This document shows positions 12,326 through 33,323 of a stretch of 47,475 nt of DNA, piece by piece. The notes under the pieces are model-generated. The model was not told the DNA's origin, searched no databases, and saw only the letters and a list, made by a program, of their open reading frames with translations. The position numbers and the translations under genes were made by a program. The stretch is from positions 1 through 47,475 of the forward strand of contig CACXUM010000027.1 in assembly GCA_902770835.1 (NCBI GenBank), read 5' to 3'. This DNA comes from an uncultured Bacteroidia bacterium. Lineage in GTDB: Bacteria; Bacteroidota; Bacteroidia; Bacteroidales; F082. Within the stretch, counting starts at the first letter, position 1. Each line of letters opens with the position of its first letter.

Positions 12326-12347
12326 TGATGTTTAATTGTTGATTGTT
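12326..12347 (-). promoter_or_regulatory. Shared 22-nt 5' leader, copy upstream of purB
   Basis: These 22 nt are identical to 16434-16455, directly upstream of the aldolase gene. On the coding strand the segment is A-rich (AACAATCAACAATTAAACAT) and ends 4 nt before the ATG. A-rich leaders aid translation in Bacteroidetes, which lack strong Shine-Dalgarno use. Part of it also encodes the last residues of the YhcG-like protein. Confidence 0.6.
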
Positions 12348-13513
12348 GAATCGTTTAATTGTTGTTGTCTTTGTAAATATAATTCTTTTTGCCGTTCAAT
12401 CTCACGGCGCAACTCTTCCTCTGTAGGTAGATAGAGTTTGTATTTTGAGGCATAAAGTTGCTCATTTTTTGACAGAGAAGAGAATCGAACAACATCGCTA
12501 TCGGTGTCCGAACAAAGGATGATTCCGATAGTTGGGTTGTCGTCAGGTTGTTTCATCAATTGGTCATACAATTGCAAGTACATATCCATTTGTCCGACAT
12601 CTTGATAACTCAATTTATTGGTTTTCAAATCGATAAGAACAAAGCATTTCAATATGTAATTATAGAATACAAGGTCGATGAAATAGTCGTTTTCTTCTGT
12701 GCGGAGGTGTTGCTGGCGGGCGACAAAAGCAAAGCCTTTGCCCAATTCCATCAAAAACTGCTGCAAATTGTTGGTGATGGCTTCCTCAAGCGTGGATTCG
12801 TGTAACGAAGGGTGTTGCTGTAGTCCCAAAAACTCCGCAATAATCGGATTTTTGATATAGGCCAATCTGTCTTTTTGAAAATCAGCCGTTTTTTCCTGCA
12901 TCTCTGCGATAACCGGTTCTTTTTTTTGCGAAAGCAGAAGCCTCTCGTAGTATTGCGTACTGATGTTCCTGTCGAGGGTGCGATAGCTCCACATCTGTTT
13001 GGCGGCCTCGTTCAAATACCAAAATCGGGCCGTTTCGTTTTCAACTCTCATCAGCCTCTCGTAGTGCGTCCATGACAGTTGGGGAAACAAGGGAATTGTG
13101 CTTTCTGATTCGGCAGGCACTGCCTGCCCTTTTGATTCAGCAGGCACTGCCTGCTGAATTGAAAAAGGTAATGACTGAAAAATAGCAGGCAGTGCCTGCT
13201 GAATTTGTAAGTTGCTGAATGTGAGATAGAACTTTCGCATATTTCTAACATTCGTTTCAGAATACCCCTTGCCAAATTCCTCGGTAAGTGCAGCTGAAAC
13301 AATCTCAATGACATGCTTGCCGTAATCGGCTTTGTCTTTGCCCATTTGCTCCTGAACGACAATTCTTTGTCCAATTAGCCAGTTGCTGACAATTTGCATA
13401 ACATTGATGGCGCGATAGGATTGGTTACGTGCGGCTTGCACGATTTGTTTTACTTCGACAATCAGTTTCGCTTCCGAATTGTCGGGGTTTTGATGTGCTC
13501 TATCTGCGTTCAT
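12332..13513 (-). CDS. DUF1016 / YhcG-family PD-(D/E)XK nuclease
   Basis: The 393-residue protein has the DUF1016 N-terminal domain at about residues 18-120 (NVMQIVSNWLIGQRIVVQEQ, then GYSETNVRNMRKFYL). The YhcG C-terminal nuclease-like domain is at about 185-375, with FIDLVFYNYILKCFVLIDLKTNKL giving the D-x(n)-D/E-x-K core, then YQDVGQMDMYLQLYD. Relatives are Holliday-junction-type or restriction-associated nucleases. The linker at about 105-135 carries QQAVPAES-type repeats encoded by three palindromic inserts. The last ten residues (QQLNDSTINN) come from the A-rich leader of purB, suggesting the gene was inserted against that leader. The start at 13513 is preferred over 13609 because of two -7 boxes at 13525-13543. 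Confidence 0.85.
   Translation of the reverse strand: MNADRAHQNPDNSEAKLIVEVKQIVQAARNQSYRAINVMQIVSNWLIGQRIVVQEQMGKDKADYGKHVIEIVSAALTEEFGKGYSETNVRNMRKFYLTFSNLQIQQALPAIFQSLPFSIQQAVPAESKGQAVPAESESTIPLFPQLSWTHYERLMRVENETARFWYLNEAAKQMWSYRTLDRNISTQYYERLLLSQKKEPVIAEMQEKTADFQKDRLAYIKNPIIAEFLGLQQHPSLHESTLEEAITNNLQQFLMELGKGFAFVARQQHLRTEENDYFIDLVFYNYILKCFVLIDLKTNKLSYQDVGQMDMYLQLYDQLMKQPDDNPTIGIILCSDTDSDVVRFSSLSKNEQLYASKYKLYLPTEEELRREIERQKELYLQRQQQLNDSTINN
13113..13199. repeat. Three GCAGGCASTGCCTGC palindromes inside the yhcG-like gene
   Basis: Copies lie at 13113-13127, 13140-13154 and 13185-13199; the third has G instead of C at the centre. The middle copy extends to a perfect 25-bp palindrome at 13135-13159. 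They are GC-rich in an AT-rich gene, keep the reading frame, and encode QQALPA/QQAVPAES-like peptide in the linker between the two domains. Confidence 0.8.
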
Positions 13514-13524
13514 ATTTTGAATAA

Positions 13525-13543
13525 CAAAAGTATCGCAAAAATA
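13525..13543 (-). promoter_or_regulatory. Overlapping -7 boxes of the yhcG-like gene, left copy of an 18-nt repeat
   Basis: On the minus strand TACTTTTG (13532 to 13525) and TATTTTTG (13543 to 13536) both match TAnnTTTG. The 18 nt AAAAGTATCGCAAAAATA at 13526-13543 recur exactly at 15023-15040, just after ATPase B. Confidence 0.6.
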
Positions 13544-13576
13544 AGAATAATATTGTTTTGTTATGAAACAAATATG

Positions 13577-13666
13577 CCGTTTTTTGGAAAAACGGACAAA
13601 ATAATTCAAAAATTTGTTGGAAAAACGGACAAAAAGTAGTTATTTTGCATTGGAAAAACGGACAAA
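13577..13666 (+). repeat. Iteron array upstream of ATPase B (17-bp repeats, 33-bp period)
   Basis: Three identical copies of TTGGAAAAACGGACAAA lie at 13584-13600, 13617-13633 and 13650-13666, each exactly 33 bp apart, about three helical turns. The first is extended into a hairpin by CCGTTTTT at 13577-13584, opposite AAAAACGG. The last ends 2 nt before the ATPase start codon at 13669, so a bound protein would block translation initiation or transcription. This is a strong candidate for an autoregulatory operator. Confidence 0.85.
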
Positions 13667-13668
13667 TT

Positions 13669-15018
13669 ATGCTTAAAAGAAAGATTGACAAGTATTTATA
13701 TGATTTTTTCAAGACCAATAACAAAGCTTTGCTTGTTACAGGTGCGAGGCAGACGGGGAAATCGTTCTCCATCAGCCATTTCGGGACAACCCATTTCGAA
13801 AGTTTCATCGAAATCAACTTTATTGAGATGCCTGATGCTGTGGATGTTATTGCCCAAGCGAAAGACCGCGACGATATGCTTTTGAGGCTCTCCGCTCTTG
13901 CCGACCGACCGCTCATCGCGGGCAAAACCTTGTTCTTCTTCGATGAGGTGCAGGAATGTCCTTCCATAGTCACCGCTGTCAAGTTTTTGGTCTCTGAAGG
14001 CAGCTACCGATACATCTTGAGTGGCTCGCTTTTAGGCGTGGAACTCAACGACTTGCGTTCCGAACCAGTGGGTTATATGGATGTCGTTGAAATGTTTCCG
14101 CTCGACTTGGAGGAGTTTTTTATGGCATTGGGCGTAAATGATGATGTGATGCAGGCCGTCAAGGATGCGTGGGAAAGCAAAAAGCCCGTTCCCGATTTCA
14201 TCCATACGAAACTGATGGAACTGTTCAGGCTTTACCTCATCGTTGGTGGTATGCCGGCGGTTGTGCAGAAATATTTGGACACCAACAACCTTCAAGATGT
14301 CCTTGCCGAGCAACAGGCCATCATTCGGCTTTACAAGCGTGATATTGCCAAATACGACCGCAATCATAAACTCTACATCGAGGAAATCTTCGATATGATA
14401 CCTTCGGAACTCAACGCCAAGAACAAACGGTTTATCCTCAAGGATTTGAACGAAAATATGAAATTCTCGCGTTACGAGAACAGTTTCATCTGGCTTAAGG
14501 ATGCTGGTGTGGCCTTGCCTGTTTATAATGTTGAGGAGCCGACTGTGCCGCTGAAACTCTCGCGCTCGCGCAATTTGTTCAAGTTGTTTCAAAACGACGT
14601 AGGACTTTTGACATGTCAATTTGCGGAAGGCATTCAGTTGCGGATTCTCAAAGACGACAAGGGAATTAATTTCGGTTCTGTGTATGAGAACGTTGTGGCG
14701 CAAGAATTACATGCGCATGGTTTTGAGTTGTATTACTTCAACAGCAAGAAGCAAGGTGAACTGGACTTTGTCATAGAGAAGGACGGCAAGGTTGTTCCCA
14801 TTGAGGTGAAGTCGGGCAAAGACTACCAACGCCACAACGCCTTGACTAATGTCTTGGCCAATCCCGATTACCAAATCAAGGATGCTATAGTGTTCAGCAA
14901 CAATAATTTGAGCCGAATCAACAAAACCATTTACTTACCGATTTACATGATAGCCTTCCTAAAAAAATCTACATTGCCACCAATTACATACACTGTTGAT
15001 TTGTCGGGATTGAGATGA
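13669..15018 (+). CDS. AAA_14-DUF4143 ATPase with PD-(D/E)XK-like C-terminus (ATPase B)
   Basis: The 449-residue protein has an AAA ATPase domain with Walker A TGARQTGKS near residue 28 and Walker B TLFFFDEVQ near 90. DUF4143 follows, with winged-helix and nuclease-like parts from about residue 215. The motif GELDFVIEKDGKVVPIEVKSG near 375 is a D-x(n)-E-x-K nuclease-type core. The start is ATG 13669; an upstream TTG at 13645 is weaker and lies within the repeats. Such ATPases are very common in Bacteroidetes, often single genes, and their function is unknown; a mobile or selfish nature has been suspected. The private iteron array in front and an 18-nt direct repeat on both sides support a self-contained module. 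Confidence 0.88.
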   Translation: MLKRKIDKYLYDFFKTNNKALLVTGARQTGKSFSISHFGTTHFESFIEINFIEMPDAVDVIAQAKDRDDMLLRLSALADRPLIAGKTLFFFDEVQECPSIVTAVKFLVSEGSYRYILSGSLLGVELNDLRSEPVGYMDVVEMFPLDLEEFFMALGVNDDVMQAVKDAWESKKPVPDFIHTKLMELFRLYLIVGGMPAVVQKYLDTNNLQDVLAEQQAIIRLYKRDIAKYDRNHKLYIEEIFDMIPSELNAKNKRFILKDLNENMKFSRYENSFIWLKDAGVALPVYNVEEPTVPLKLSRSRNLFKLFQNDVGLLTCQFAEGIQLRILKDDKGINFGSVYENVVAQELHAHGFELYYFNSKKQGELDFVIEKDGKVVPIEVKSGKDYQRHNALTNVLANPDYQIKDAIVFSNNNLSRINKTIYLPIYMIAFLKKSTLPPITYTVDLSGLR

Positions 15019-24827: not shown

Positions 24828-24849
24828 GGAATAATTTTGTGAAAAGAAA

Positions 24850-24876
24850 AAATCCGCCCCCATTTTGGACGGATTT
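24850..24876 (-). terminator. Terminator of ATPase C
   Basis: AAATCCG (24850-24856) pairs with CGGATTT (24870-24876); on the minus strand a T-rich run follows. It lies downstream of the 3' repeat array of ATPase C. Confidence 0.6.
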
Positions 24877-24891
24877 CTTTTTCTTGAAGTA

Positions 24892-24943
24892 ATATTAATG
24901 GTGATTAATATTAACCACTATTTATATTAATCATCATTTACAT
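24892..24943. repeat. Downstream half-site array of ATPase C
   Basis: Three abutting half-sites resemble ATGTAAATGGTGATTAAT: forward at 24892-24909, inverted and shortened at 24910-24925, inverted at 24926-24943. The last overlaps the stop codon and final Met codon of ATPase C. The same half-site forms the two dyads in front of the gene. Confidence 0.8.
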
Positions 24944-26251
24944 ATCTTCGATAGACAATGCTTGAAGCGAAAGTTTATACTTTCCGAAAGCGCCGGCGGG
25001 CAGCGCTTTTGTCTTTTCTTCAAGCGTTTTTGGGTTGATTTTCTCAGGGTTGCGCTTGATTTCGGCCACGATGCCCGTGCCCTCAAACTCGTTCAGGGCT
25101 ATCATGTCGATTTCGTTGCCGCCTTTGCGGTCCCACCAGTTGCCGGCCATCGTGAACTCGCCCGATTCCATCGCTTTGGCTTGGAAATACTGCTCCAACG
25201 TCCTTCCGGAAAACTGCTCGTAATACTTGCCCATGTTTTGCCGCAAGGCGGACATCTGCTGCCGCTCAATCAGCGACTGGTAAGGCCAGATGAAGCGGAA
25301 CCAGAATCGCAAGAACTGGTCTGAAATCTCGTATGCCGTGACCTTGCTGTTGGGTTTGGCCAGCATGGGTTTGAGACGTTTCACGAGCATGAAGTTCTTC
25401 TCCAAGTTCTGCAAATAAACGCCCATGTCCTTCTGCATGACCCCATCGATTTCGCTGCGTTTGTTCATGCCTGCGGCAATTAGTTGAAGGACAGAAAAAT
25501 AGGTGTTGCTCTCGTCGCTAAACTCTTGGTTCATCAGGTCGCGGCCTTCGCTGAGGAAATAGGAGTCGGGGCGGCACACATAGTTGAGCATTTTTTCCTT
25601 TGTGTAGCATTGCGCGTCCATCAGCAGTTCCACGTATTTGGCCACTCCGCCGGTGATCATGTAAAGGCAGAGCAGGTCTTCGTTCTTGTAGTTGGGGCTG
25701 TGGTCGCGGAAGATTTGCTTCAGCACCTCGATGCGGAAGGGGAGGAGCGTGAATTTCGAGGTTGGGCGTCCGTAAAGCGGCTCGTTTTCGTCCTCGAAGA
25801 TGCGTTTCATCAATGATTGTATGCTGCCCGAGGCCACCAAGTGCAGGTGCGACTCTCGATGATAGCGGTCCCAAAGGTCTTGTATCTCGCTGAAGATGGC
25901 GGGATTCACCTTTTGGAGGTTCTGGAACTCGTCGAAAAAAACGGTGAAATGACGCTGCAACGACTCTTTCATGATGACTTCAAACAAGTCGCGGAAACGG
26001 CTGATTTGGCCGTAAACTTGAATGTTCAACTGCTCTTGAATGGTCTGCTGGAACTTTTGGCAAAGCACGGCCTCGCTGTCTTTCGAGACAAAGAGATAGG
26101 CAATGTTTTTCCCTTCCAAAGCCTTGTTAATCAACGAGGTCTTTCCCACGCGGCGGCGACCTGTCAGCACGGTGAACACCGCCGACCTTTCGGTTTGCTT
26201 CTCGCTCTGCAATAGCAGATCCAGTTCCATTTCCCTGTCGTAGAATTTCAT
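24938..26251 (-). CDS. AAA ATPase with DUF234-like PD-(D/E)XK tail (ATPase C)
   Basis: The 437-residue protein starts with a DRE region (MKFYDREMELDLL) and a P-loop, LTGRRRVGKTSLI, near residue 30. Walker B is HFTVFFDEFQNL near 105 and a sensor-type VASGSIQSLM near 135. A winged-helix region follows (NKRSEIDGVMQKDMGVYLQNL near 270). The C-terminal DUF234-like domain has GGNEIDMIALNEFEGTGIVAEIKRN near 385, a D-x(n)-E-x-K nuclease-type core. This is the ATPase family common in archaea and Bacteroidetes and of unknown function. A 36-bp dyad begins 1 nt upstream of its ATG and similar half-sites overlap its stop, so the repeats bracket the whole gene. Confidence 0.88.
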   Translation of the reverse strand: MKFYDREMELDLLLQSEKQTERSAVFTVLTGRRRVGKTSLINKALEGKNIAYLFVSKDSEAVLCQKFQQTIQEQLNIQVYGQISRFRDLFEVIMKESLQRHFTVFFDEFQNLQKVNPAIFSEIQDLWDRYHRESHLHLVASGSIQSLMKRIFEDENEPLYGRPTSKFTLLPFRIEVLKQIFRDHSPNYKNEDLLCLYMITGGVAKYVELLMDAQCYTKEKMLNYVCRPDSYFLSEGRDLMNQEFSDESNTYFSVLQLIAAGMNKRSEIDGVMQKDMGVYLQNLEKNFMLVKRLKPMLAKPNSKVTAYEISDQFLRFWFRFIWPYQSLIERQQMSALRQNMGKYYEQFSGRTLEQYFQAKAMESGEFTMAGNWWDRKGGNEIDMIALNEFEGTGIVAEIKRNPEKINPKTLEEKTKALPAGAFGKYKLSLQALSIEDM

Positions 26252-26252
26252 A

Positions 26253-26288
26253 ATATTAACCGTAATTTATATAAATCATCATTTACAT
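26253..26288. repeat. 36-bp operator-like dyad at the start of ATPase C
   Basis: Two 18-bp half-sites meet at TTTAT|ATAAA: ATATTAACCGTAATTTAT (26253-26270) and the inverted ATGTAAATGATGATTTAT (26271-26288). The dyad lies between the -7 box at 26297-26304 and the ATG at 26251, where binding would repress the gene. Confidence 0.8.
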
Positions 26289-26296
26289 TTATGCCG

Positions 26297-26304
26297 CAAA
26301 AATA
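26297..26304 (-). promoter_or_regulatory. Promoter of ATPase C
   Basis: TATTTTTG on the minus strand, with a TTTG at 26323-26326 (minus strand) 18 nt upstream as -33. Two dyads of the ATPase C repeat family lie on either side. Confidence 0.65.
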
Positions 26305-26314
26305 CAAAAAAGAA

Positions 26315-26341
26315 AAATCCGCCAAACATTTTGACGTATTT
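26315..26341 (-). terminator. Probable terminator of the S41 peptidase transcript
   Basis: AAATCCG (26315-26321) faces CGTATTT (26335-26341) with one mismatch, followed on the minus strand by a T-rich run. Same AATCCGCC-type style as the terminators at 24850-24876 and 29093-29124. Confidence 0.45.
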
Positions 26342-26353
26342 TTTCTCGAAATA

Positions 26354-26389
26354 ATGTAAATGGTGATTAATATTAATCGCCGTTTACAT
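26354..26389. repeat. 36-bp near-perfect dyad upstream of ATPase C
   Basis: ATGTAAATGGTGATTAAT (26354-26371) is followed directly by its inverted partner at 26372-26389. The arms match at 16 of 18 positions, the two exceptions being G-T-type changes. It lies upstream of the -33 element of ATPase C and 21 bp beyond the S41 stop. Confidence 0.85.
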
Positions 26390-26409
26390 TTTTTTTGTTT
26401 GGGCCGTTA

Positions 26410-27684
26410 TCAATAACCCTTAATGTACTCAATAGCCGCGTCAAGTTGGGGCTTGAGGTCGTCGTTGTGGTCTTTGCGCAGTATGATTTGGTCGGGTGTG
26501 TAGCCTGTGCCTTCCAACACCTTGCCGTCTATCCGTGCCTCGAATGTCGAGGTGTAGATGTAGTGGTGCATCGTTTCAATATTGCCAAAGGGGCCGCCAT
26601 AGTTGAGGTTGATGCTCGATGTGGGCTGCAATGGCCCAGTGGCGCCGTAGGTGCGCTCGCCTATGGTGTGGCTCGTGGGCAGCACTTTCTTGATGATGGA
26701 GGTCTCGATCTCGCCCATGCTGATGGAATTTATGTCGCAAAGGACGACGTATGGGACGTTTTCGGCGGTGAGGTCACGGTGGTATTGGCTCTGAGGGTCA
26801 ATATAATAGGGTGTCCAAGCGGAGTGCTCGTATCGTCCAGGGCCCTCCTTGTAGCGGGTTTGCATCACCTCGGTGCGCTCGTTGATGAACGAACCTACGA
26901 GATAATCGAGGTCGTCTTGGTAGCCGCCTGAGTTGGCGCGGTTGTCCAAGATGATGCCTGCCAGTTGCTCGCGCGGTGTTTCCTTGATGGCGGTCAGCCA
27001 ATGCTCAATCAAGGCTGCAGCCTCTTGAATGGTCGGGTCGTTGCTTTTCAGGATGGGTGTGATAGCCGCGCACGACTGCCAAAGGTAGGGAATCTTGCGT
27101 CCGTCGGGAAGCCTGAACAGGCAATAGGCAAAAAGCCCAACTTGACTGGTTCCTGGAATCCCGACAATAAAAAACTCGTTTGCTTCGAGTTCATAATGTG
27201 TGCCAACCTCTTGGAAGAAGCCATAAAAACGTGCTTGCTCGATGAATGACCATTCAATGTAATAGTCTCTTTTTTCCACTTCGTATTGTCCGGGAGTGAC
27301 GGCGAATAATTCAGTCGTGTCGGCAGCGGCAGGGAAGATGTTCTTGATCTGAATCGCCATGTGATGGTCTCTCAAACCGCCCATCGCGCCTTTGTAGAGT
27401 TCCTTGAGCTCGTCCAAGGTCACATCCTGGCCGGCTTCGTGTTTTGCATCGAGGGCGCGGAATTTGGGCATGTATTCGCTGTAAACGGCATCCCAGTCGG
27501 TGTTGTCAACGTCCCAAAACACATAGCCCGTGCTGATGCATTTCCAAAGATACTCGAACTGGCCGGAATAGCTATCGTAGGCCAACTTGTCCGATTCGCC
27601 GATATAGGGATGATAGTCGGCTTCTTTGCGGCAACCGCTGAAAACCAAGGCGATGATGGCTAATATGATGATGTTTCTTTTCAT
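26410..27684 (-). CDS. S41-family peptidase lipoprotein
   Basis: The 424-residue protein has a lipoprotein signal (lipobox LVFSGC near residue 17). The S41 domain occupies the C-terminal half, with LAGIILDNRANSGGYQDDLDYLVG (family LDxRxNxGG core, near 245) and CDINSISMGEIETSI, whose serine near 320 is the probable nucleophile. The end segment TGEGYTPD-like (LEGTGYTPDQIIL) is also typical. S41 members are C-terminal processing or tricorn-core-type proteases; in Bacteroidales many lipoprotein members have unknown substrates. It follows the barrel gene by 27 nt and may be the last gene of the transcript starting at 29068. Confidence 0.85.
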   Translation of the reverse strand: MKRNIIILAIIALVFSGCRKEADYHPYIGESDKLAYDSYSGQFEYLWKCISTGYVFWDVDNTDWDAVYSEYMPKFRALDAKHEAGQDVTLDELKELYKGAMGGLRDHHMAIQIKNIFPAAADTTELFAVTPGQYEVEKRDYYIEWSFIEQARFYGFFQEVGTHYELEANEFFIVGIPGTSQVGLFAYCLFRLPDGRKIPYLWQSCAAITPILKSNDPTIQEAAALIEHWLTAIKETPREQLAGIILDNRANSGGYQDDLDYLVGSFINERTEVMQTRYKEGPGRYEHSAWTPYYIDPQSQYHRDLTAENVPYVVLCDINSISMGEIETSIIKKVLPTSHTIGERTYGATGPLQPTSSINLNYGGPFGNIETMHHYIYTSTFEARIDGKVLEGTGYTPDQIILRKDHNDDLKPQLDAAIEYIKGY

Positions 27685-27711
27685 AGTTGTAATAATCTGA
27701 CAATTAATAAT

Positions 27712-28422
27712 TTAGAAGTTAGCAGCTATGCCGAGAGTAATGGAAAGCGTGTTCAGATACCGTGGGTCGCTCAGATGCGCGTATCCTTTGTGATGGCTTA
27801 CAAGGTCGTGGTAATACATGACATCCAAGCTAACGACAGGGCCTCCGCCGCTTACACTACTATCGAAAAAGCTATAACTTAGTCCCAATCCCCCTACTGC
27901 TCCCGCGATGAGACGTTGGTCTTCGCTATTGAACTCACGAATTTCATCGAAGTCGTTAAAATAGACATAGTAATCAGTCATCCAATAGGTTGTGCCTTTT
28001 GCCCAGGCTTTTATCCAATAACCGCCAAAGCCACCACAATAGGCATGGCCACGCAGTTGACGCCCGCCAAACGAGAAATCGTCCATCAGAGGAAGCATGA
28101 GATAATCATTGTTGTAACATGTGAATACAGGTTCTAAATAATGAAGATTACGGTCCATGCGGTGCCAACGTGACATAATGTCCAAATCGGCACGGATGGC
28201 CAGCCAGTCATTTAATTGATAGCGTGCCTGTAATCCAGCATCAGGGCAGATGAGGGCAGAATAGGTTTCATCGATCCGACCCATGTTGGAACGGGAGATG
28301 TTCGTCCAATTCAAACCTCCTTTCACGCCAATTGTCCATTTGGGATTCCATTGTGCATTGGCCTCCATCGCCGTCCAGCAAAACAGGACGAGAACGATGG
28401 CTTTGATAAAATTGTTTTTCAT
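27712..28422 (-). CDS. Outer membrane beta-barrel protein
   Basis: This 236-residue protein has a signal peptide ending ANAQ near residue 24, then alternating amphipathic strands such as WTIGVKGGLNWTNIS, AGLQARYQLNDWLAIRADL and GGLGLSYSFF. It ends in the aromatic residue F (TLSITLGIAANF), as barrel proteins do. It fits the PorT/OmpA-barrel-like group (outer membrane beta-barrel domain) common in Bacteroidota. Function unknown. It lies 22 nt after the RelE-type toxin gene and 27 nt before the S41 gene. Confidence 0.8.
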   Translation of the reverse strand: MKNNFIKAIVLVLFCWTAMEANAQWNPKWTIGVKGGLNWTNISRSNMGRIDETYSALICPDAGLQARYQLNDWLAIRADLDIMSRWHRMDRNLHYLEPVFTCYNNDYLMLPLMDDFSFGGRQLRGHAYCGGFGGYWIKAWAKGTTYWMTDYYVYFNDFDEIREFNSEDQRLIAGAVGGLGLSYSFFDSSVSGGGPVVSLDVMYYHDLVSHHKGYAHLSDPRYLNTLSITLGIAANF

Positions 28423-28444
28423 AAACAGAATATTTAGTTAAACG

Positions 28445-28771
28445 TTAATTGTTTTCTTTAGTTACCACTTGTTCAGCCTGTTTCTTCGGCTCGCGGCGGG
28501 TGTCCCAGAAAGCGGCGATATAAATGGTTTCGCCATTGATGAAATACACCATTTTGCTTAATCTGTTGATAACCGTGTTTCTATAGGAAAGTTTTCGGCC
28601 TTCAAACAATGGGTCAATCGCCCCAAGAAAAGGGTTGGTCAATATCAACCGTTCTGTTTCACGAACTTGCTTAATAAAGTCTTTCCTTGCTTCGCTGCCA
28701 AATCTTTTTTGTATGTATTTGGCAATTTGGTACAAAGACTTCTTTGCTTTCGGGTCCCAAATCGCTTTCAT
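28445..28771 (-). CDS. RelE/ParE-family toxin
   Basis: This 108-residue protein starts MKAIWDPKAKKSLYQIAKYIQKRFG, the usual ParE/RelE N-terminal helices. It ends with the core strand pattern NRLSKMVYFINGETIYIAAFWDTRREPKK, close to the RelE/ParE plasmid-stabilisation fold. It overlaps the antitoxin by 4 nt (ATGA), so the pair is translationally coupled. Such toxins act on mRNA in the ribosome or on DNA gyrase; which one applies here is not clear. Confidence 0.85.
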   Translation of the reverse strand: MKAIWDPKAKKSLYQIAKYIQKRFGSEARKDFIKQVRETERLILTNPFLGAIDPLFEGRKLSYRNTVINRLSKMVYFINGETIYIAAFWDTRREPKKQAEQVVTKENN

Positions 28772-29034
28772 GCCATCTCAAGTTGAAGTTCTTTTTGCTC
28801 AAATTCTTCTTCCAAATCACGGAAAACTTCTTCGCTGGGGATACCTAATCCTGCCTTATAATTGTGCTCTGCCTCGTCAAGCATGGCATTGAGTTCGTCC
28901 AAAGTGTATGGCTTCAGGTTTTCCTCATCGGCATCGGCGTATGCCATCAAGTTCATAGCCATCCAACGCATATTGTCGGGTGAGAGTGTGCTGTGGAGAT
29001 AATCCAACAATCCTCTTAATGTTGATTCGCTCAT
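28768..29034 (-). CDS. Antitoxin partner of the RelE/ParE toxin
   Basis: The 88-residue acidic protein (MSESTLRGLLDYLHSTLSPDNMRWM, then DELNAMLDEAEHNYKAGLGIPSEEVFRDLEEEFEQ) has the usual antitoxin tail PSEEVFRDLEEE, which wraps the toxin. No obvious DNA-binding domain, although the N-terminal helices may serve. First gene of the unit; a -7 box lies 27 nt upstream at 29061-29068. Confidence 0.8.
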   Translation of the reverse strand: MSESTLRGLLDYLHSTLSPDNMRWMAMNLMAYADADEENLKPYTLDELNAMLDEAEHNYKAGLGIPSEEVFRDLEEEFEQKELQLEMA

Positions 29035-29060
29035 GGTTTGCCTGTTTTGTTATTATGCGA

Positions 29061-29068
29061 CAAAAGTA
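29061..29068 (-). promoter_or_regulatory. Promoter of the toxin-antitoxin unit
   Basis: TACTTTTG on the minus strand, matching TAnnTTTG. With small gaps downstream, the transcript may run through antitoxin, toxin, barrel and S41 genes. Confidence 0.6.
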
Positions 29069-29092
29069 CAATTTTTCGTCAAAATGAAACAA

Positions 29093-29124
29093 AAAAATCC
29101 GCCAAACAATGTTGGCGGATTTTT
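29093..29124 (-). terminator. Terminator of pruA
   Basis: A perfect 13-bp stem, AAAAATCCGCCAA (29093-29105) with TTGGCGGATTTTT (29112-29124), loop of 6 nt, 20 nt after the pruA stop. AT tails on both sides make it usable in both directions. Confidence 0.8.
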
Positions 29125-29144
29125 CTTGGTGTTTATCTTTACGA

Positions 29145-30776
29145 TTATTCCTTCGCGAGGAACGGATACCCGTAAGCGGCAGCAGGAACAAACGTGTTCT
29201 TGATGGCGCGAGGGCTGGTCCAGCGGATGAGGTTCCACAGGCCACCGGCCTTGTCGTTGGTGCCGCTGGCGCGGGCGCCGCCGAAGGGCTGCATGCCGAC
29301 CACGGCTCCCGTGGGCTTGTCGTTCACGTAGTAGTTGCCGGCTGCATGGCGCAGCTTGTCGTTGGCAATCTTCTGGGCCTTCAGGCAGTTGCCGAAGAAG
29401 GCACCGGTGAGGGCGTAAGGCGAGCTCTGGTCGCAAACATCCAACATTTCCTCAAACTTGTTGTCGTCGTAAACGTAGATGGTGATGATGGGTCCGAAGA
29501 TTTCTTCCACCATGCTCTCGTAGTTCGGCACCTTGGCGAGGATGACGGTGGGCTCCACGAAGTAACCCACGCTCTTGTCGCAGTTGCCGCCGAACACGAT
29601 TTCGGCATCGGCGCTGGCCTTGGCGCGGTCGATGTAGCCCTTGCAGTTGTCGAACGAAGCCTCGTCGATGACGGCGTTCACATAGTTCGAGAAGTCTTTC
29701 ACGTCACCCATCTTGATGGTGCTCATCATGTCGCCCACGCGGTTCTTCACGTCGTTCCACATCGAAGCGGGGATGTAGGCACGCGAGGCGGCTGAGCACT
29801 TCTGGCCTTGGTATTCGAAGGCGCCACGCACGATGGCCACGGCCACTTCTTGCGGGTCGGCGCTGTTGTGGACGAAGATGAAGTCCTTGCCGCCGGTCTC
29901 ACCCACGAGGCGAGGATAGGCCTTGTACATGTCGAGGTTCTGTCCGGTGGTCTTCCACAGGCTCTTGAAGGTGCCCGTGCTGCCGGTGAAGTGAATGGCG
30001 TTGAAGTTCTTGTCCTTCAGGGCCACGCCGCTGATCACGCTGCCCTTGCCGGGCAAGAAGTTGACCACGCCGGCGGGAAGTCCGGCTTCCATGAAGATGC
30101 GCATATCGGTGTAGTTCGACAGCAGTGCAGTCGTCGAGGGCTTCCAGATGGTAGTGTTGCCCATCAGGGCGGGAGTCATGTTCAGGTTGGAGGCGATGGA
30201 GGTGAAGTTGAAAGGCGTGATGGCGAACACGAAGCCTTCCAAGGGACGGTATTCGGTGCGGTTCAGCTGGTCGTTGGCCGAAGCGGGCTGCTCGGCGTAG
30301 AGCTTGCTGGCGTAGTAGTTGTTGTAGCGGAAGAAGTCGATGGTTTCGCAGGCGCTGTCGATTTCGGCTTGGAAGCAGTTCTTCGACTGGCCGAGCATGG
30401 TGGCGGCGTTGATACGGGCGCGGTACTTGGTGGCCAACATCTCGCCGATGCGTGCCATGATGGCGGCGCGCTCGTCCCAAGGCGTGTTCTCCCAGTCGTG
30501 CTTGGCGGCTTGGGCGGCGTCGATGGCCATGCGGACTTCCTTTTCGCCTACCTTGTGGTAGCGTGCGATGACGTGTTTGTGGTCGTGAGGCATCACCACT
30601 TCGCCCATGTCGCCCGTGCGGACTTCCTGGCCGTTGATGATGGCGGGGATTTCAACGATTTCGTTGGATTGTCTTTCGAGTTCCTTCTGGAGTTCGATTC
30701 TTTCCGGACTGCCTGGCTTGTAGCTTTTTACAGGCTCGTTTTCCGGCTTCGCAAATGTGATCAGTGCGTTGTTCAT
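29145..30776 (-). CDS. pruA: L-glutamate gamma-semialdehyde dehydrogenase
   Basis: The 543-residue protein is the stand-alone 1-pyrroline-5-carboxylate dehydrogenase, oxidising glutamate semialdehyde to glutamate with NAD in proline or arginine breakdown. Motifs are ITPFNFTSIASNL near 190, HFTGSTGTFKSLW near 265, RLVGETGGKDFIFVH with the general-base Glu near 295, and FEYQGQKCSAASRAY with the catalytic Cys near 330. The C-terminal PFGGARASGTNDKAGG is typical. It stands alone between terminators; no proline dehydrogenase is nearby. Its leader resembles that of the gene at 39101. Confidence 0.95.
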   Translation of the reverse strand: MNNALITFAKPENEPVKSYKPGSPERIELQKELERQSNEIVEIPAIINGQEVRTGDMGEVVMPHDHKHVIARYHKVGEKEVRMAIDAAQAAKHDWENTPWDERAAIMARIGEMLATKYRARINAATMLGQSKNCFQAEIDSACETIDFFRYNNYYASKLYAEQPASANDQLNRTEYRPLEGFVFAITPFNFTSIASNLNMTPALMGNTTIWKPSTTALLSNYTDMRIFMEAGLPAGVVNFLPGKGSVISGVALKDKNFNAIHFTGSTGTFKSLWKTTGQNLDMYKAYPRLVGETGGKDFIFVHNSADPQEVAVAIVRGAFEYQGQKCSAASRAYIPASMWNDVKNRVGDMMSTIKMGDVKDFSNYVNAVIDEASFDNCKGYIDRAKASADAEIVFGGNCDKSVGYFVEPTVILAKVPNYESMVEEIFGPIITIYVYDDNKFEEMLDVCDQSSPYALTGAFFGNCLKAQKIANDKLRHAAGNYYVNDKPTGAVVGMQPFGGARASGTNDKAGGLWNLIRWTSPRAIKNTFVPAAAYGYPFLAKE

Positions 30777-30827
30777 TACTTGTTATTTAAAGATTTGAAG
30801 ATTTAGAATTTCAAGATTTTTGCGGTG

Positions 30828-30835
30828 CAAATATA
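30828..30835 (-). promoter_or_regulatory. -7 box of pruA
   Basis: TATATTTG on the minus strand. The leader down to the ATG at 30776 holds repeated AAATCTT-type words, also seen before the gene at 39101. Confidence 0.55.
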
Positions 30836-30860
30836 GTAAAAATCATTGCGAAAAACTTCG

Positions 30861-30878
30861 TTGCGAAATTTTTCGCAA
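30861..30878 (-). terminator. Hairpin after ATPase D
   Basis: TTGCGAAA (30861-30868) pairs with TTTCGCAA (30871-30878). A further TTGCGAAAAA lies at 30846-30855. It follows the stop of ATPase D by 9 nt and fits a terminator; a T-run is only partial. Confidence 0.5.
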
Positions 30879-30886
30879 CAATAAGC

Positions 30887-32335
30887 CTAAATAGTCGGTT
30901 CAAAAAGACTATCTAAAGTTACGGTTTTTTGGAACACACCGCTGTGCAGGCCATATTTCAGGCCGTATGTGGTGACGAGGGTCATCTGCACATTGTGCGT
31001 CCGGCTCACATGGTCAATCATCCATTGCAGGCGCTCGCGAAGTTGCATCTCATAGTCGGCCTTGACTTCAAATTCCTTATTGACGAATTTCATCTCGCAG
31101 AGATTGATTACCCTATCGGAGCGGCTGATGATGAGGTCGATTTGCATCCCTTTCTGTCCGTCAATCCCGCGCATTGTCCAAGGGGAGTTTTCCGAACTGA
31201 CGCCAGCCACGCCCAAACCGGCCTTGACTTGCTCGACATGGCCGAGGCAGGCGTTTTCGAATGCCCGTCCCCGCCAAGGGTTGAGCGAGGGATGGTTCTC
31301 GTTGTCGCGCCAGAAATGTCTGCCCCGTCCGCGTCCTTCCACTTGGTCGAGGTAGAAAAGGCAAAACGGGTCGATGAGGCGGTATTGCAGGTTTCGTTTG
31401 TTGTTCTCGAAAGGCTTGTAGCGTTCGATGAAGTCGCTGGCTTCCAAGGCGTGAAGTGCTTGCGAGAGCGACTTGCCCGCGACAATGCCCGTTTTCTCCG
31501 CGATTTCTTCGCGGCTATATCCGCTTTGGCGTTTGGAAAGTTGTCGGATGATGGCCTTGTAAGGCTCGGGCGACCTGAACAAGGAGTTGAACAGCCTTTC
31601 GAATTCGTTTTTCAGTTTTGCCTTGTGGTCGAAATACAGGCTGTCGATGGTTTGGGCCAAACTCAGTCCGGGCTGTACATAACTGAGGTACATCGGTATG
31701 CCGCCGACGGCCATGTAGAGTTGGAGAATGTCGTAACGCGAAAGGGTAACATCCTGTGATTTCAGCAGTTGCTCGGCCTCGTGAAGTGTGAAAGGGGCAA
31801 GTTGTATCTCGGCGTTTACGCGGTCGTAAAGCCCACCATACGAGTTGATGAGGTTGTCCTGAATCCAAGAGGTGGCCGAGCCACACACGATGAGCATCAG
31901 GTTGTCTTGTCCGGCTCCCCAACCGTTCCAGAAATGCTCGAAGGCAGTGACGAAGCCCGACCGTGGCGTGTCCATCCAAGGCATCTCGTCGATAAACACC
32001 ACTAATCTTTTGTTTTTGTCTTGTTTTTCAAGCAGTTCCCTCAGTCGGTCGAAGGCTTCCATCCAGTTTTTTGGGCGCGAGATTGTTTTGGCACCATATT
32101 GAATCAGGCAGGAATGGAAAGCCTCAAGTTGGGCTTCGAGCAGGTTGCCTTCTTCCAACTCCAAAGGCGAAACGCCGGTGTGGTAGAACGCGAGGTGTTC
32201 TTTGAACAGTTCTCTCACCAAGTAGGTTTTTCCCACTCTTCTGCGACCGTATATGGCCACCAATTGCGATTGTTTCTTGCGGAAAAGCCTTATGAGTTCT
32301 TCGATTTGTTGTTTTCGCCCGATAATGTTGCTCAT
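30887..32335 (-). CDS. AAA ATPase with DUF234-like PD-(D/E)XK tail (ATPase D)
   Basis: The 482-residue protein has Walker A IYGRRRVGKTYLV near residue 30 and Walker B LVVFIDEMPWM near 112. A sensor segment LIVCGSATSWI follows. A winged-helix region is near SGYSREEIAEKTGIVAGKSLSQAL (about 275). The DUF234-like domain has MQIDLIISRSDRVINLCEMKF near 405, a D-x(n)-E-x-K core with the K conserved. It is more distant from ATPase C than the shared plan suggests and its operator repeat is entirely different. It lies between pruA and an NlpC/P60 gene; neither neighbour is functionally related. Its array lies upstream of its own -33 element. Confidence 0.88.
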   Translation of the reverse strand: MSNIIGRKQQIEELIRLFRKKQSQLVAIYGRRRVGKTYLVRELFKEHLAFYHTGVSPLELEEGNLLEAQLEAFHSCLIQYGAKTISRPKNWMEAFDRLRELLEKQDKNKRLVVFIDEMPWMDTPRSGFVTAFEHFWNGWGAGQDNLMLIVCGSATSWIQDNLINSYGGLYDRVNAEIQLAPFTLHEAEQLLKSQDVTLSRYDILQLYMAVGGIPMYLSYVQPGLSLAQTIDSLYFDHKAKLKNEFERLFNSLFRSPEPYKAIIRQLSKRQSGYSREEIAEKTGIVAGKSLSQALHALEASDFIERYKPFENNKRNLQYRLIDPFCLFYLDQVEGRGRGRHFWRDNENHPSLNPWRGRAFENACLGHVEQVKAGLGVAGVSSENSPWTMRGIDGQKGMQIDLIISRSDRVINLCEMKFVNKEFEVKADYEMQLRERLQWMIDHVSRTHNVQMTLVTTYGLKYGLHSGVFQKTVTLDSLFEPTI

Positions 32336-32363
32336 TGCCTTACAAATGACTGGTTTAAGGCTG

Positions 32364-32393
32364 CAAAACTACGGAATATTTCCAAACCAGCAA
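32364..32393 (-). promoter_or_regulatory. Promoter of ATPase D
   Basis: -7 TAGTTTTG (32371 to 32364, minus strand) and -33 TTG (32393 to 32391) are separated by 19 nt, the usual Bacteroidetes spacing. The repeat array begins 18 nt further upstream at 32412. Confidence 0.65.
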
Positions 32394-32411
32394 AACAATT
32401 TTTGTATTTTA

Positions 32412-32556
32412 TTTACCCGCGAAACCCTATTTTTATCATCTCGTGGGTAATTATAAATTTTTTATTTACCCGTGAAATGGTGGTTTCTGTGTTTCGTGGG
32501 TAATTATCGTTTTCTTATTTACCCACGAAACGGCATTTTAGGTATTTCGCGGGTAA
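32412..32556. repeat. Alternating half-site array upstream of ATPase D
   Basis: Six half-sites of TTTACCCRYGAAA type. Forward copies are at 32412-32424, 32465-32477 and 32518-32530, exactly 53 bp apart. Inverted copies (TTTCGYGGGTAA) are at 32439-32450, 32492-32503 and 32545-32556, also exactly 53 bp apart; the first has TCTCG. Adjacent half-site centres are 26 or 27 bp apart, about 2.5 helical turns, and the orientation alternates. The segments between are unrelated AT-rich 13-14 bp. It fills the gap between ATPase D and the NlpC/P60 gene. Confidence 0.92.
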
Positions 32557-32579
32557 TTTGATTTGGTTTTTCGGGAACA

Positions 32580-33323
32580 TTACCCCATTCGCTTAATGGC
32601 TTGCAACCGATGTGTATGCACATTCAATTCTTTATTAAATATCCCCGTTTGGTCAAGGTAGTCGATGCGGACTTGTCCCGAGGCGTGGATGATTTGCTCG
32701 TCGCCCATGAGGATGCCTACATGCGTGATTCGTCCATCCTCATCGCCGAAAAAGGCCAAATCTCCGGCGCATGTTTCTTGCAGGAAATACACCAAATCGC
32801 CGCAAGCCACCTGCTGTGAAGCATCGCGGGGGAGGAGCAAGCCACTCAAGCGGGCGCAAATTTGCACCAAGCCTGAACAATCAATGCCAAATGCCGTGCG
32901 GCCTCCCCAAAGATAAGGCGCACCGAGCAGTTTCTTGGCGTTTTCAACCATCAGTTCAGGCTGAAAATGCTGTGGCATTTCCGCTGCGTCAGGATACGGC
33001 TCGTAAAGTGGCGTGCCCAAGGTCAATAATTTGCTATCGTATTCCGCGACGGCCTTATTAATAAGGTATGGCTTTTTGCTTTTCAAAGCGATGAAATCCG
33101 CATCGTTGATTTCGCAAAACTGTTTCGCCTGAATCCAGCCTTCGTAAAACTCGGTTCCTGAGCCTGTCGAAGGGCCGTTTTCTGTTTGAATCAAAAGCCA
33201 TTCTGGAGCTTTGTCCAAAACGGTATAGGTTTCATTATAAAGCAGTTGGCTCACCATTTCGGAGGCGTGTCGGGCTTCCTTGCGCAAGGCGATGGCGGAT
33301 AAATTGCAGATGCCGTGGGTCAT
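32580..33323 (-). CDS. NlpC/P60 (C40) peptidase, YkfC-like
   Basis: The 247-residue protein has no signal peptide and starts at MTHGICNLSAIALRKEARHASEM. The N-terminal SH3-like part runs to about residue 120 and the NlpC/P60 domain follows. Catalytic residues appear in FGIDCSGLVQ (Cys, near 150), ITHVGILMG (His, near 200) and IIHASGQVRIDY. This resembles cytoplasmic YkfC-type gamma-D-glutamyl-L-diamino acid endopeptidases that recycle muropeptides. A short repeat-like insert encodes GPSTGSGT in the SH3 region near residue 55. The frame extends to 33362 but the start at 33323 is preferred. Divergent from the PgpH-like gene. Confidence 0.83.
   Translation of the reverse strand: MTHGICNLSAIALRKEARHASEMVSQLLYNETYTVLDKAPEWLLIQTENGPSTGSGTEFYEGWIQAKQFCEINDADFIALKSKKPYLINKAVAEYDSKLLTLGTPLYEPYPDAAEMPQHFQPELMVENAKKLLGAPYLWGGRTAFGIDCSGLVQICARLSGLLLPRDASQQVACGDLVYFLQETCAGDLAFFGDEDGRITHVGILMGDEQIIHASGQVRIDYLDQTGIFNKELNVHTHRLQAIKRMG
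33153..33176. repeat. Dispersed repeat-like insert in the NlpC/P60 gene
   Basis: These 24 nt on the minus strand contain CCTTCGACAGGCTCAGG, which I recognise from dispersed repeat elements in many environmental and gut bacterial genomes. It is inserted in frame and gives the peptide GPSTGSGT between LLIQTEN and EFYEGWIQ. Identity of the element is from memory, not from a search. Confidence 0.5.

Follow-up and report, generated by a model that had tools for sequence, protein, structure and literature searches.

Plasmid iterons are direct repeats of about 17–22 bp with a helical pitch, located next to the gene for the winged-helix Rep initiator that binds them. AbiEi, the antitoxin of the type IV abiE system, represses its own promoter through inverted repeats. 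Two candidate defence systems, PDC-S01 and PDC-S27, are presented in the accessible parts of one study as ATPase domains fused to PD-(D/E)XK members; PDC-S01 is placed fourth there in frequency among the defences of all prokaryotes, and most candidates of this kind still await validation (PMC12988326). Among rumen-genome defence systems PDC-S01 is the most frequent individual locus, according to the available part of a second study (PMC13356809). The accessible open-access literature contained no account of the PDC-S01 mechanism and, preprints not being covered, no description of private repeat arrays at these ATPase families. The present analysis concerns the window, a stretch of 47,475 nucleotides from an uncultured Bacteroidia bacterium (contig CACXUM010000027.1, here C27), and three ATPase genes within it (13669-15018, 24938-26251 and 30887-32335, called below by their first coordinate), each accompanied by a regular array of short repeats. 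Such arrays were found to be private to their genes, to keep a fixed pitch, to lie at the promoter, to be conserved with the protein across phyla, and to be gained or lost with the gene as a block.

The window is one of the 76 contigs of a 3.26 Mb genome which is 85.8% complete. Profile searches of this genome gave 54 matches to DUF4143, 43 to ATPase_2 and 92 to AAA_14. The 85 AAA_14-type ATPases above the Pfam cut-off were retained, and each gene was located within a stretch taken around it. The top 57 of the AAA_14 score list (AAA_14/DUF4143 type) make up class I and the remaining 28 (ATPase_2/DUF234 type) class II, the split being by score rank and not by a domain call for each gene. The controls were simple open reading frames (ORFs) of at least 150 aa from the same loci, not annotated genes; 291 of 349 were used, the other 58 being excluded for having an intergenic region in common with an ATPase. 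The ATPase genes often lie side by side or back to back (L009, L039, L051, L005, L025).

At least three copies of a 13-mer (one mismatch, both strands) were present in the 220 bases upstream of 44 of the 85 ATPases, compared with 2 of the 291 control ORFs and none of 255 shuffles. One of the two scoring controls was itself an ATPase_2 paralogue; the other, in locus L043 and the only non-ATPase among the controls with at least three copies, matched AbiEi antitoxin models. The repeats are thus not found equally at unrelated genes. The earlier note on this DNA had described gene-specific arrays on a common protein plan at the three window genes, and this was borne out in class I: constant-pitch, same-strand, privately worded arrays of at least three copies lay upstream of 36 of the 57 genes, compared with 1 of 28 class II genes and none of the 291 controls. 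The 36 genes correspond to 35 separate arrays, since C14:46899 and C14:47649 diverge from a single array, which was counted for both here and in the spacing and tree counts.

The spacing was remarkably regular within genes. The pitch was 22–23 or 32–34 bp in 34 of the 35 class I genes with at least three same-strand copies of their best 14-mer, and 106 of the 108 spacings in these genes measured 22, 23, 32, 33 or 34 bp, while array length differed between genes. On a protein tree of 33 of the 35 genes (C75:371, which runs off its contig, and C75:1216, with a pitch of 40, were left out), the two-turn and three-turn pitches were separated by one change, compared with a mean of 10.0 after shuffling and no value as low in 500 trials; the split has a support of 85/84, on a tree which warns of long branches. 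The pitch is kept while the words change from gene to gene. Within 737 kb of stretches the best 14-mers (one mismatch) matched 222 times upstream of their own gene, 33 times downstream, 43 times at other ATPases and 74 times elsewhere, a count in which good words are mixed with weak ones, because each 14-mer was chosen automatically, even where a gene had no clear array. The best word also occurred downstream of the gene in 3 of the 57 class I genes. A few close paralogues have common words, for example C4:50722 and C2:36778. The word common to these two genes (L006, L013) is ATTCCCCAAGAAAAGTG; eight more matches to it lie elsewhere in the 737 kb and may be orphan arrays.

In the window, gene 13669 illustrates the class I arrangement. 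The 17-mer TTGGAAAAACGGACAAA is found exactly at positions 13584, 13617 and 13650, and these are the only three exact copies genome-wide. Elsewhere in the genome it had no match at up to one mismatch and three matches at two mismatches (one for a reversed-pattern control).

Class II genes are characterized by dyads. A dyad with an arm of at least 11 and a spacer of 9–40 was found at 23 of 27 class II genes; the corresponding counts were 33 of 283 for the controls and 20 of 123 for controls of low GC (this test and the flank-sharing test below covered 283 of the 291 controls, 27 of the 28 class II genes and 55 of the 57 class I genes). The 18-mer of gene 24938 has six copies at up to three mismatches, against a shuffle mean of 0.04 and no shuffle of 100 reaching six. 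Upstream of gene 30887, half-sites start at 32412, 32439, 32465, 32492, 32518 and 32545, in steps of 27/26/27/26/27. At up to two mismatches this half-site has two more matches in the window, and one shuffle of 100 also reached eight matches, so that the order of the copies stands out and not their number. In the same order, relatives about 50% identical to gene 30887 have varied dyads or half-sites upstream (29 loci, read by eye and uncounted). The 17-mers, 18-mers and alternating half-sites reported earlier at the three ATPases were therefore all located in the sequence. The D..ExK motif announced near the C-terminus was present in all three window proteins and, by pattern, in 26 of 27 class II proteins. 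The statement that an array precedes each gene was right in that all three genes have an upstream set, and incomplete in that the set starting at 24892 lies downstream of gene 24938.

Chance or AT-richness as a source of the arrays was ruled out by the controls, the shuffles and the low-GC dyad controls. A CRISPR-like array was ruled out on anatomy (a pitch of 22 or 33 bp, few copies, a position at ATPase promoters), no search for cas genes being made.

The array also follows the protein between genomes. The upstream regions of 15 loci with homologues of gene 13669 were compared. The nearest copies were in uncultured Bacteroidales/Bacteroidia metagenome-assembled genomes (MAGs). The homologue of Treponema sp. 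UBA3870 (65% identical) is preceded by five copies with 98.8% identity to the window word at a pitch of 33, that of a Eubacterium MAG (59–60%) by three copies with 98% identity at a pitch of 32, and that of a Clostridia MAG (62%) by three copies with 90% identity at a pitch of 33, the phylum labels resting on MAG contigs, which can be mis-binned. The spacers between these copies were 38–50% identical to the best window spacer. The repeats are thus not absent at the homologues, and the array persists as far as Treponema, Eubacterium and Clostridia. The homologues at L119 and L121 (63–66% identical) had changed words. Among 37 clade members, word distance tracked protein distance (Mantel rho of 0.48, with none of 2000 permutations as high); these are 37 of a set of 46 proteins, nine having been dropped for an unclear word, a fragment or a near-duplicate, and the set is without L101, L108, L111-L116 and several own-genome matches. 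Together with the pitch that follows the protein tree, this agrees with the co-diversification of protein and site that had been suggested. The best local segment for covariation with the word was at residues 241–255 (partial r of 0.36), within a winged helix read from the sequence. Arrays with a pitch of 32–33 bp and other words were found at five of ten plasmid-borne homologues (Collinsella, Agathobacter, Vibrio coralliilyticus, Glaesserella and Segatella hominis), and the Vescimonas homologue had a 42-bp spaced set. Among seven class II plasmid homologues, dyads were clear in Butyrivibrio, Emticicia and Segatella hominis, and weak or unrelated in Phocaeicola, Malaciobacter and Desulfosarcina.

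The position of the arrays is constrained too. A TAnnTTTG box was present at 80 of the 85 ATPases compared with 113 of the 291 controls. In 37 of the 52 genes with both a box and at least three copies, the nearest copy was at most 40 nt from the box. A copy was found upstream of the box in 51 of these 52 genes, and also downstream of it in 12, so most copies lie outside the ATPase mRNA. Among 55 complete paralogues of class I, 12 had no recognisable ExK motif, and 5 of these 12 still had constant-pitch arrays (motifs were counted by pattern, with C8:10178 corrected by eye and C56, whose match looks spurious, kept as motif-bearing). Repeats also accompany shorter ATPase_2 genes in which no nuclease domain is recognised by Pfam. 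The caveat is that DUF234 likewise escapes Pfam in gene 30887, where ATPase_2 and AAA_14 were above the cut-off and DUF234 was not reported at an E value of 0.001. Nuclease action is therefore not needed for the upkeep of the arrays.

The promoter-proximal position, the helical pitch, the privacy of the words and the co-inheritance of gene and array point to cooperative binding and autorepression. We propose, with a probability of roughly 60%, that each ATPase binds its own array cooperatively and represses its own gene, each paralogue having one insulated operator carried with it on a cassette. In this model the protein would consist of a P-loop ATPase, a probable winged-helix segment and usually a C-terminal domain of the PD-(D/E)XK type. 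It would read a short word private to it, which recurs along a single face of the DNA next to the gene's promoter, every two or three turns in class I and as dyads in class II. An oligomer of several adjacent subunits would then silence that one gene or meter its transcription. The packing of the oligomer would dictate the pitch, which would be kept within a clade, and the word would be set by the DNA-reading surface, diverging with each paralogue; it is through this divergence, we suggest, that some 85 paralogues in one cell may avoid mutual repression. Gene and operator would travel between genomes together. The likely purpose, which is suggested by the candidate-defence label of these proteins, would be to keep a harmful defence-type enzyme silent until needed. 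Autorepression was one of three functions put forward in the earlier note, with DNA-based spread and defence, and it appears to fit best because the arrays sit by the promoter and persist without the ExK motif or a reported nuclease domain. Sequence-specific binding of each protein to its own array would be common to all three, and is presumed from the co-inheritance of array and protein.

Several observations weigh against this proposal. Fewer than three constant-pitch copies were found at 21 of the 57 class I genes, eight of which had not even a pair. No array of three copies was present at 4 of the 10 plasmid-borne homologues first mentioned, and no dyad at the homologue of Natronomonas, the only archaeal one among the seven of class II. 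The spacing itself is not rare, since random pairs of 14-mers taken upstream of controls were 22–24 or 32–34 bp apart in 165 of 566 cases; what is rare is its constancy within a gene. The pairing of array with gene also has exceptions: the divergent ATPases C14:46899 and C14:47649 have a single array, which serves both or lies between them, and in G018 the dyads found at 32412-32557 in the window precede a different ATPase. Residues 91–105 of the ATPase core covaried with the word almost as closely (partial r of 0.32) as the best segment, and no single DNA-reading segment was picked out; the winged helix, at about residues 231–300, is probable. TAnnTTTG is what we take to be the promoter consensus, and binding, oligomerisation and repression are steps that we infer from the arrangement of the sequence. 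Lastly, the same dyad was also found downstream of 14 of the 28 class II genes. The expectation that arrays stand only in front of the genes hence failed for about half of this class, and for gene 24938, whose copies on both sides were not counted by the automatic two-sided test. The looser criterion of a 12-mer common to both flanks (one mismatch) picked out 46 of 283 controls, compared with 19 of 27 genes in class II and 21 of 55 in class I, and some class I genes may also share sequence on both sides. Autorepression by itself does not account for the downstream dyads of class II, which keep alive a reading in which the repeats belong to a mobile element.

The comparison with 40 congeneric genomes bears on this reading. 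Gene and array are gained or lost as one block, and an orphan array is sometimes left behind. Gene 30887 and its array were absent between abutting aligned flanks in five genomes (G024, G033, G012, G007 and G029). In G018 and G031 the site is occupied by a different ATPase_2 gene (MKNPFKFG...) with its own repeats, and in several other congeners by unrelated genes. The GCGAAAAATTTCGCAA repeats lie directly 5' of the MKNPFKFG... gene and run into its start codon; the window keeps the TTGCGAAA-type repeats without this gene (Table 1). Gene 24938 was absent between aligned flanks in G031 and G029, where 70–80 unaligned bases remain. The block of C14:73394, which has two-sided dyads, was absent in all 12 congeners whose junctions were read, nine of them with outer flanks abutting within about 10 bases. 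At C14:66270, a single dyad in G030 (53-base overlap of the flanks) faces a dyad-gene-dyad arrangement in G000, a pattern that recombination of direct repeats, or the opposite event, would produce.

Table 1. Coordinates of the ATPase genes, their repeats and the associated gain/loss blocks (window positions unless a locus is given)
Feature	Position	Strand	Description
Class I ATPase	13669..15018	+	AAA_14 + DUF4143; C-terminal ELDF..IEVK motif; PADLOC PDC-S01
Private array 1	13584..13666	+	Three exact 17-mers TTGGAAAAACGGACAAA, pitch 33 bp; last ends 2 bases before ATG
Class II ATPase	24938..26251	-	ATPase_2 + DUF234; EIDM..AEIK motif; PADLOC PDC-S27
Private repeats, downstream side of 24938-26251	24892..24943		Three copies, two orientations, last overlaps stop codon
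Private repeats, upstream side of 24938-26251	26271..26389		Three copies, including imperfect dyad 26354-26389
Gain/loss block of 24938-26251, approximate	24834..26412		G031 (L161), G029 (L171) flanks align
Class II ATPase	30887..32335	-	ATPase_2; QIDL..CEMK motif; PADLOC PDC-S27
Private array 3	32412..32557		Three dyads, six half-sites, alternating orientation
Gain/loss block of 30887-32335 and array, approximate	30878..32590		Absent between abutting flanks in five congeners
Orphan array	30846..30879		TTGCGAAA-type repeats; in G018, G031 directly precede ATPase_2 gene (MKNPFKFG..., 360 aa)
Short ATPase_2 (MKNPFKFG..., 360 aa)	L161:1153-2235; L162:8125-9210	+; -	No nuclease domain in Pfam

The arrays could then mark where a mobile element of one gene ends or lands. 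Its ATPase-nuclease would use the flanking word for movement, for excision or for renewed entry at solo sites, much as a transposase recognises its own ends. The two-sided dyads of half of class II, the repeats on both flanks of gene 24938 and the empty sites at orthologous intergenic places would be accounted for. The flanks overlap by up to about 10 bases at block edges (TTTTTCG at the site of gene 30887, an A-rich stretch at C14:73394), gene 13669 has homologues in other phyla and in 61 plasmid records, and one genome contains 54 DUF4143 and 92 AAA_14 matches. Other findings count against this explanation. Inspection by eye of three block families gave short shared stretches and no clear target-site duplication, in flanks about 70–96% identical, which limits the resolution of the junctions, and the edges of the C14:73394 block lie tens of bases outside the dyads. 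Recombination between two direct repeats would explain the solo dyad in G030 equally well. Only 3 of the 57 class I genes have their best word downstream as well, arrays persist at some paralogues that lack ExK, and viral contigs contained no relatives of the two class II window proteins. We consider this reading unlikely. The spread of gene and array as a block is observed, and its being driven by the protein is unproven because neither a clear target duplication nor excision chemistry was seen. A homing-endonuclease logic was ruled out: the array is complete beside the gene, and insertion beside a complete array does not destroy it.

In a second alternative the array would be a sensor or a self-label in defence, the resting ATPase being released, activated or switched to cutting by invading DNA, by single strands or by a titrating copy of the word. 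The window proteins match the corresponding PADLOC models over the whole protein: gene 13669 matches PDC-S01 (1-446 of 449, E value of 8e-202), and genes 24938 and 30887 match PDC-S27 (2-413 of 437, E value of 1.8e-41, and 1-478 of 482, E value of 5e-187, respectively). The rank of PDC-S01 among defences and the ATPase plus PD-(D/E)XK make-up of both candidates (PMC12988326, accessible parts) would agree with such a role, as would the combination of ATPase and D..ExK motif in nearly all class II proteins. The same source, in its accessible parts, describes validation as pending for most candidates (PMC12988326), and the link with phages is slight, a homologue of gene 30887 being found in 8 of 50,697 phage records. 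The defence role of the window ATPases is a candidate label only, and we regard a sensor function of the array as somewhat less likely still than a mobile-element origin.

The last alternative, in which the repeats would be bound by a host regulator or would be RNA elements, terminators or functionless slippage products, appears improbable: some inverted repeats near ATPase genes do resemble plain terminators (for example upstream of C5:91207) and array length varies between genes, but dozens of different words are unreadable by one host factor, the word is kept across phyla despite unrelated spacers, constant pitch was absent from all 291 controls, and, with a copy upstream of the box in 51 of 52 genes, most copies are not in the mRNA.

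A more far-reaching version of the autorepression proposal can be offered tentatively, and we would not bet on it. The arrays may be part of a self-recognition code, in which cross-phylum ATPase-nucleases, most copies of them carrying a fixed-pitch array of their own and co-evolving with it, would act as orthogonal, self-controlled defence or selfish cassettes. Cross-repression resembling superinfection immunity would drive the emergence of new words, and the two-sided class II dyads might also serve gain and loss. Such a code may be likened to the immunity groups of phages, where cross-repression would impose a new word on each copy. Whatever its reach, the presence of a gene-specific DNA target before most copies makes binding, repression and cutting by PDC-S01 directly testable. 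The family would also provide dozens of natural pairs of protein and DNA, alike in geometry and unlike in word, from which a recognition code could be established and orthogonal operators drawn.

The surroundings of the window genes showed further features. Terminator-like hairpins of the AATCCGCC type lie next to the dyads of gene 24938 (24842-24890 and 26296-26345), and also at 29086-29137. They match several intergenic places of congeners; those next to gene 24938 lengthen the direct repeats that flank it and could recombine. A ParE-type toxin gene is located at 28445-29034, and a short upstream partner ORF overlaps it by 4 bases, possibly forming a toxin-antitoxin pair. A DUF1016/YhcG-type PDDEXK gene (12332-13609), with an internal 27-bp repeat at 13101-13162, adjoins gene 13669. 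In L113, L114 and L116 the sequence 5' of the array differs, which suggests by eye that the DUF1016/YhcG gene is missing there.

Among known protein families, the window proteins presumably belong with the MNS/STAND ATPases, SSO1545 and the Cdc6/Orc1 relatives. A P-loop ATPase followed by a winged-helix-like domain is typical of the MNS/STAND group (PMC4599002, PMC8195603), and Orc1-type relatives bind DNA (PMC4599002). The likeness with the window proteins would lie in this domain order; private arrays are not described in the accessible parts of these papers. A search of PDB chains by sequence gave no match for two proteins and one profile, gene 30887 not being among the queries. In the alga Galdieria, expanded "archaeal ATPases" adjoin telomeres and their origin is disputed, according to the accessible part of the report (PMC6629376).

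Class I arrays resemble plasmid iterons in being direct repeats at helical pitch that adjoin a gene. They differ in that dozens of unrelated words coexist in one genome and the pitch may also be 32–34 bp; no replication origin function was indicated, origin features not having been looked for. The resemblance with AbiEi lies in inverted repeats on both sides of the promoter-like box of the own gene, and repeated sites at the own promoter are found at the ATPase genes as well. The AbiEi-like control gene (L043:1362-1994, plus strand; PADLOC E value of 6.5e-67, no Pfam match at 0.01) has two inverted repeats, one either side of a promoter-like box, within 170 bases upstream. AbiEi differs in being a small protein without ATPase or nuclease and in having no dozens of differently worded copies. 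The closest likeness is with PDC-S01 and PDC-S27, which have the same fusion of an ATPase with a PD-(D/E)XK-type domain as the window proteins. Arrays are not mentioned in the accessible parts of the two studies that list these candidates (PMC12988326, PMC13356809), whereas most of the genes analysed here carry an array, of fixed pitch or made of dyads.

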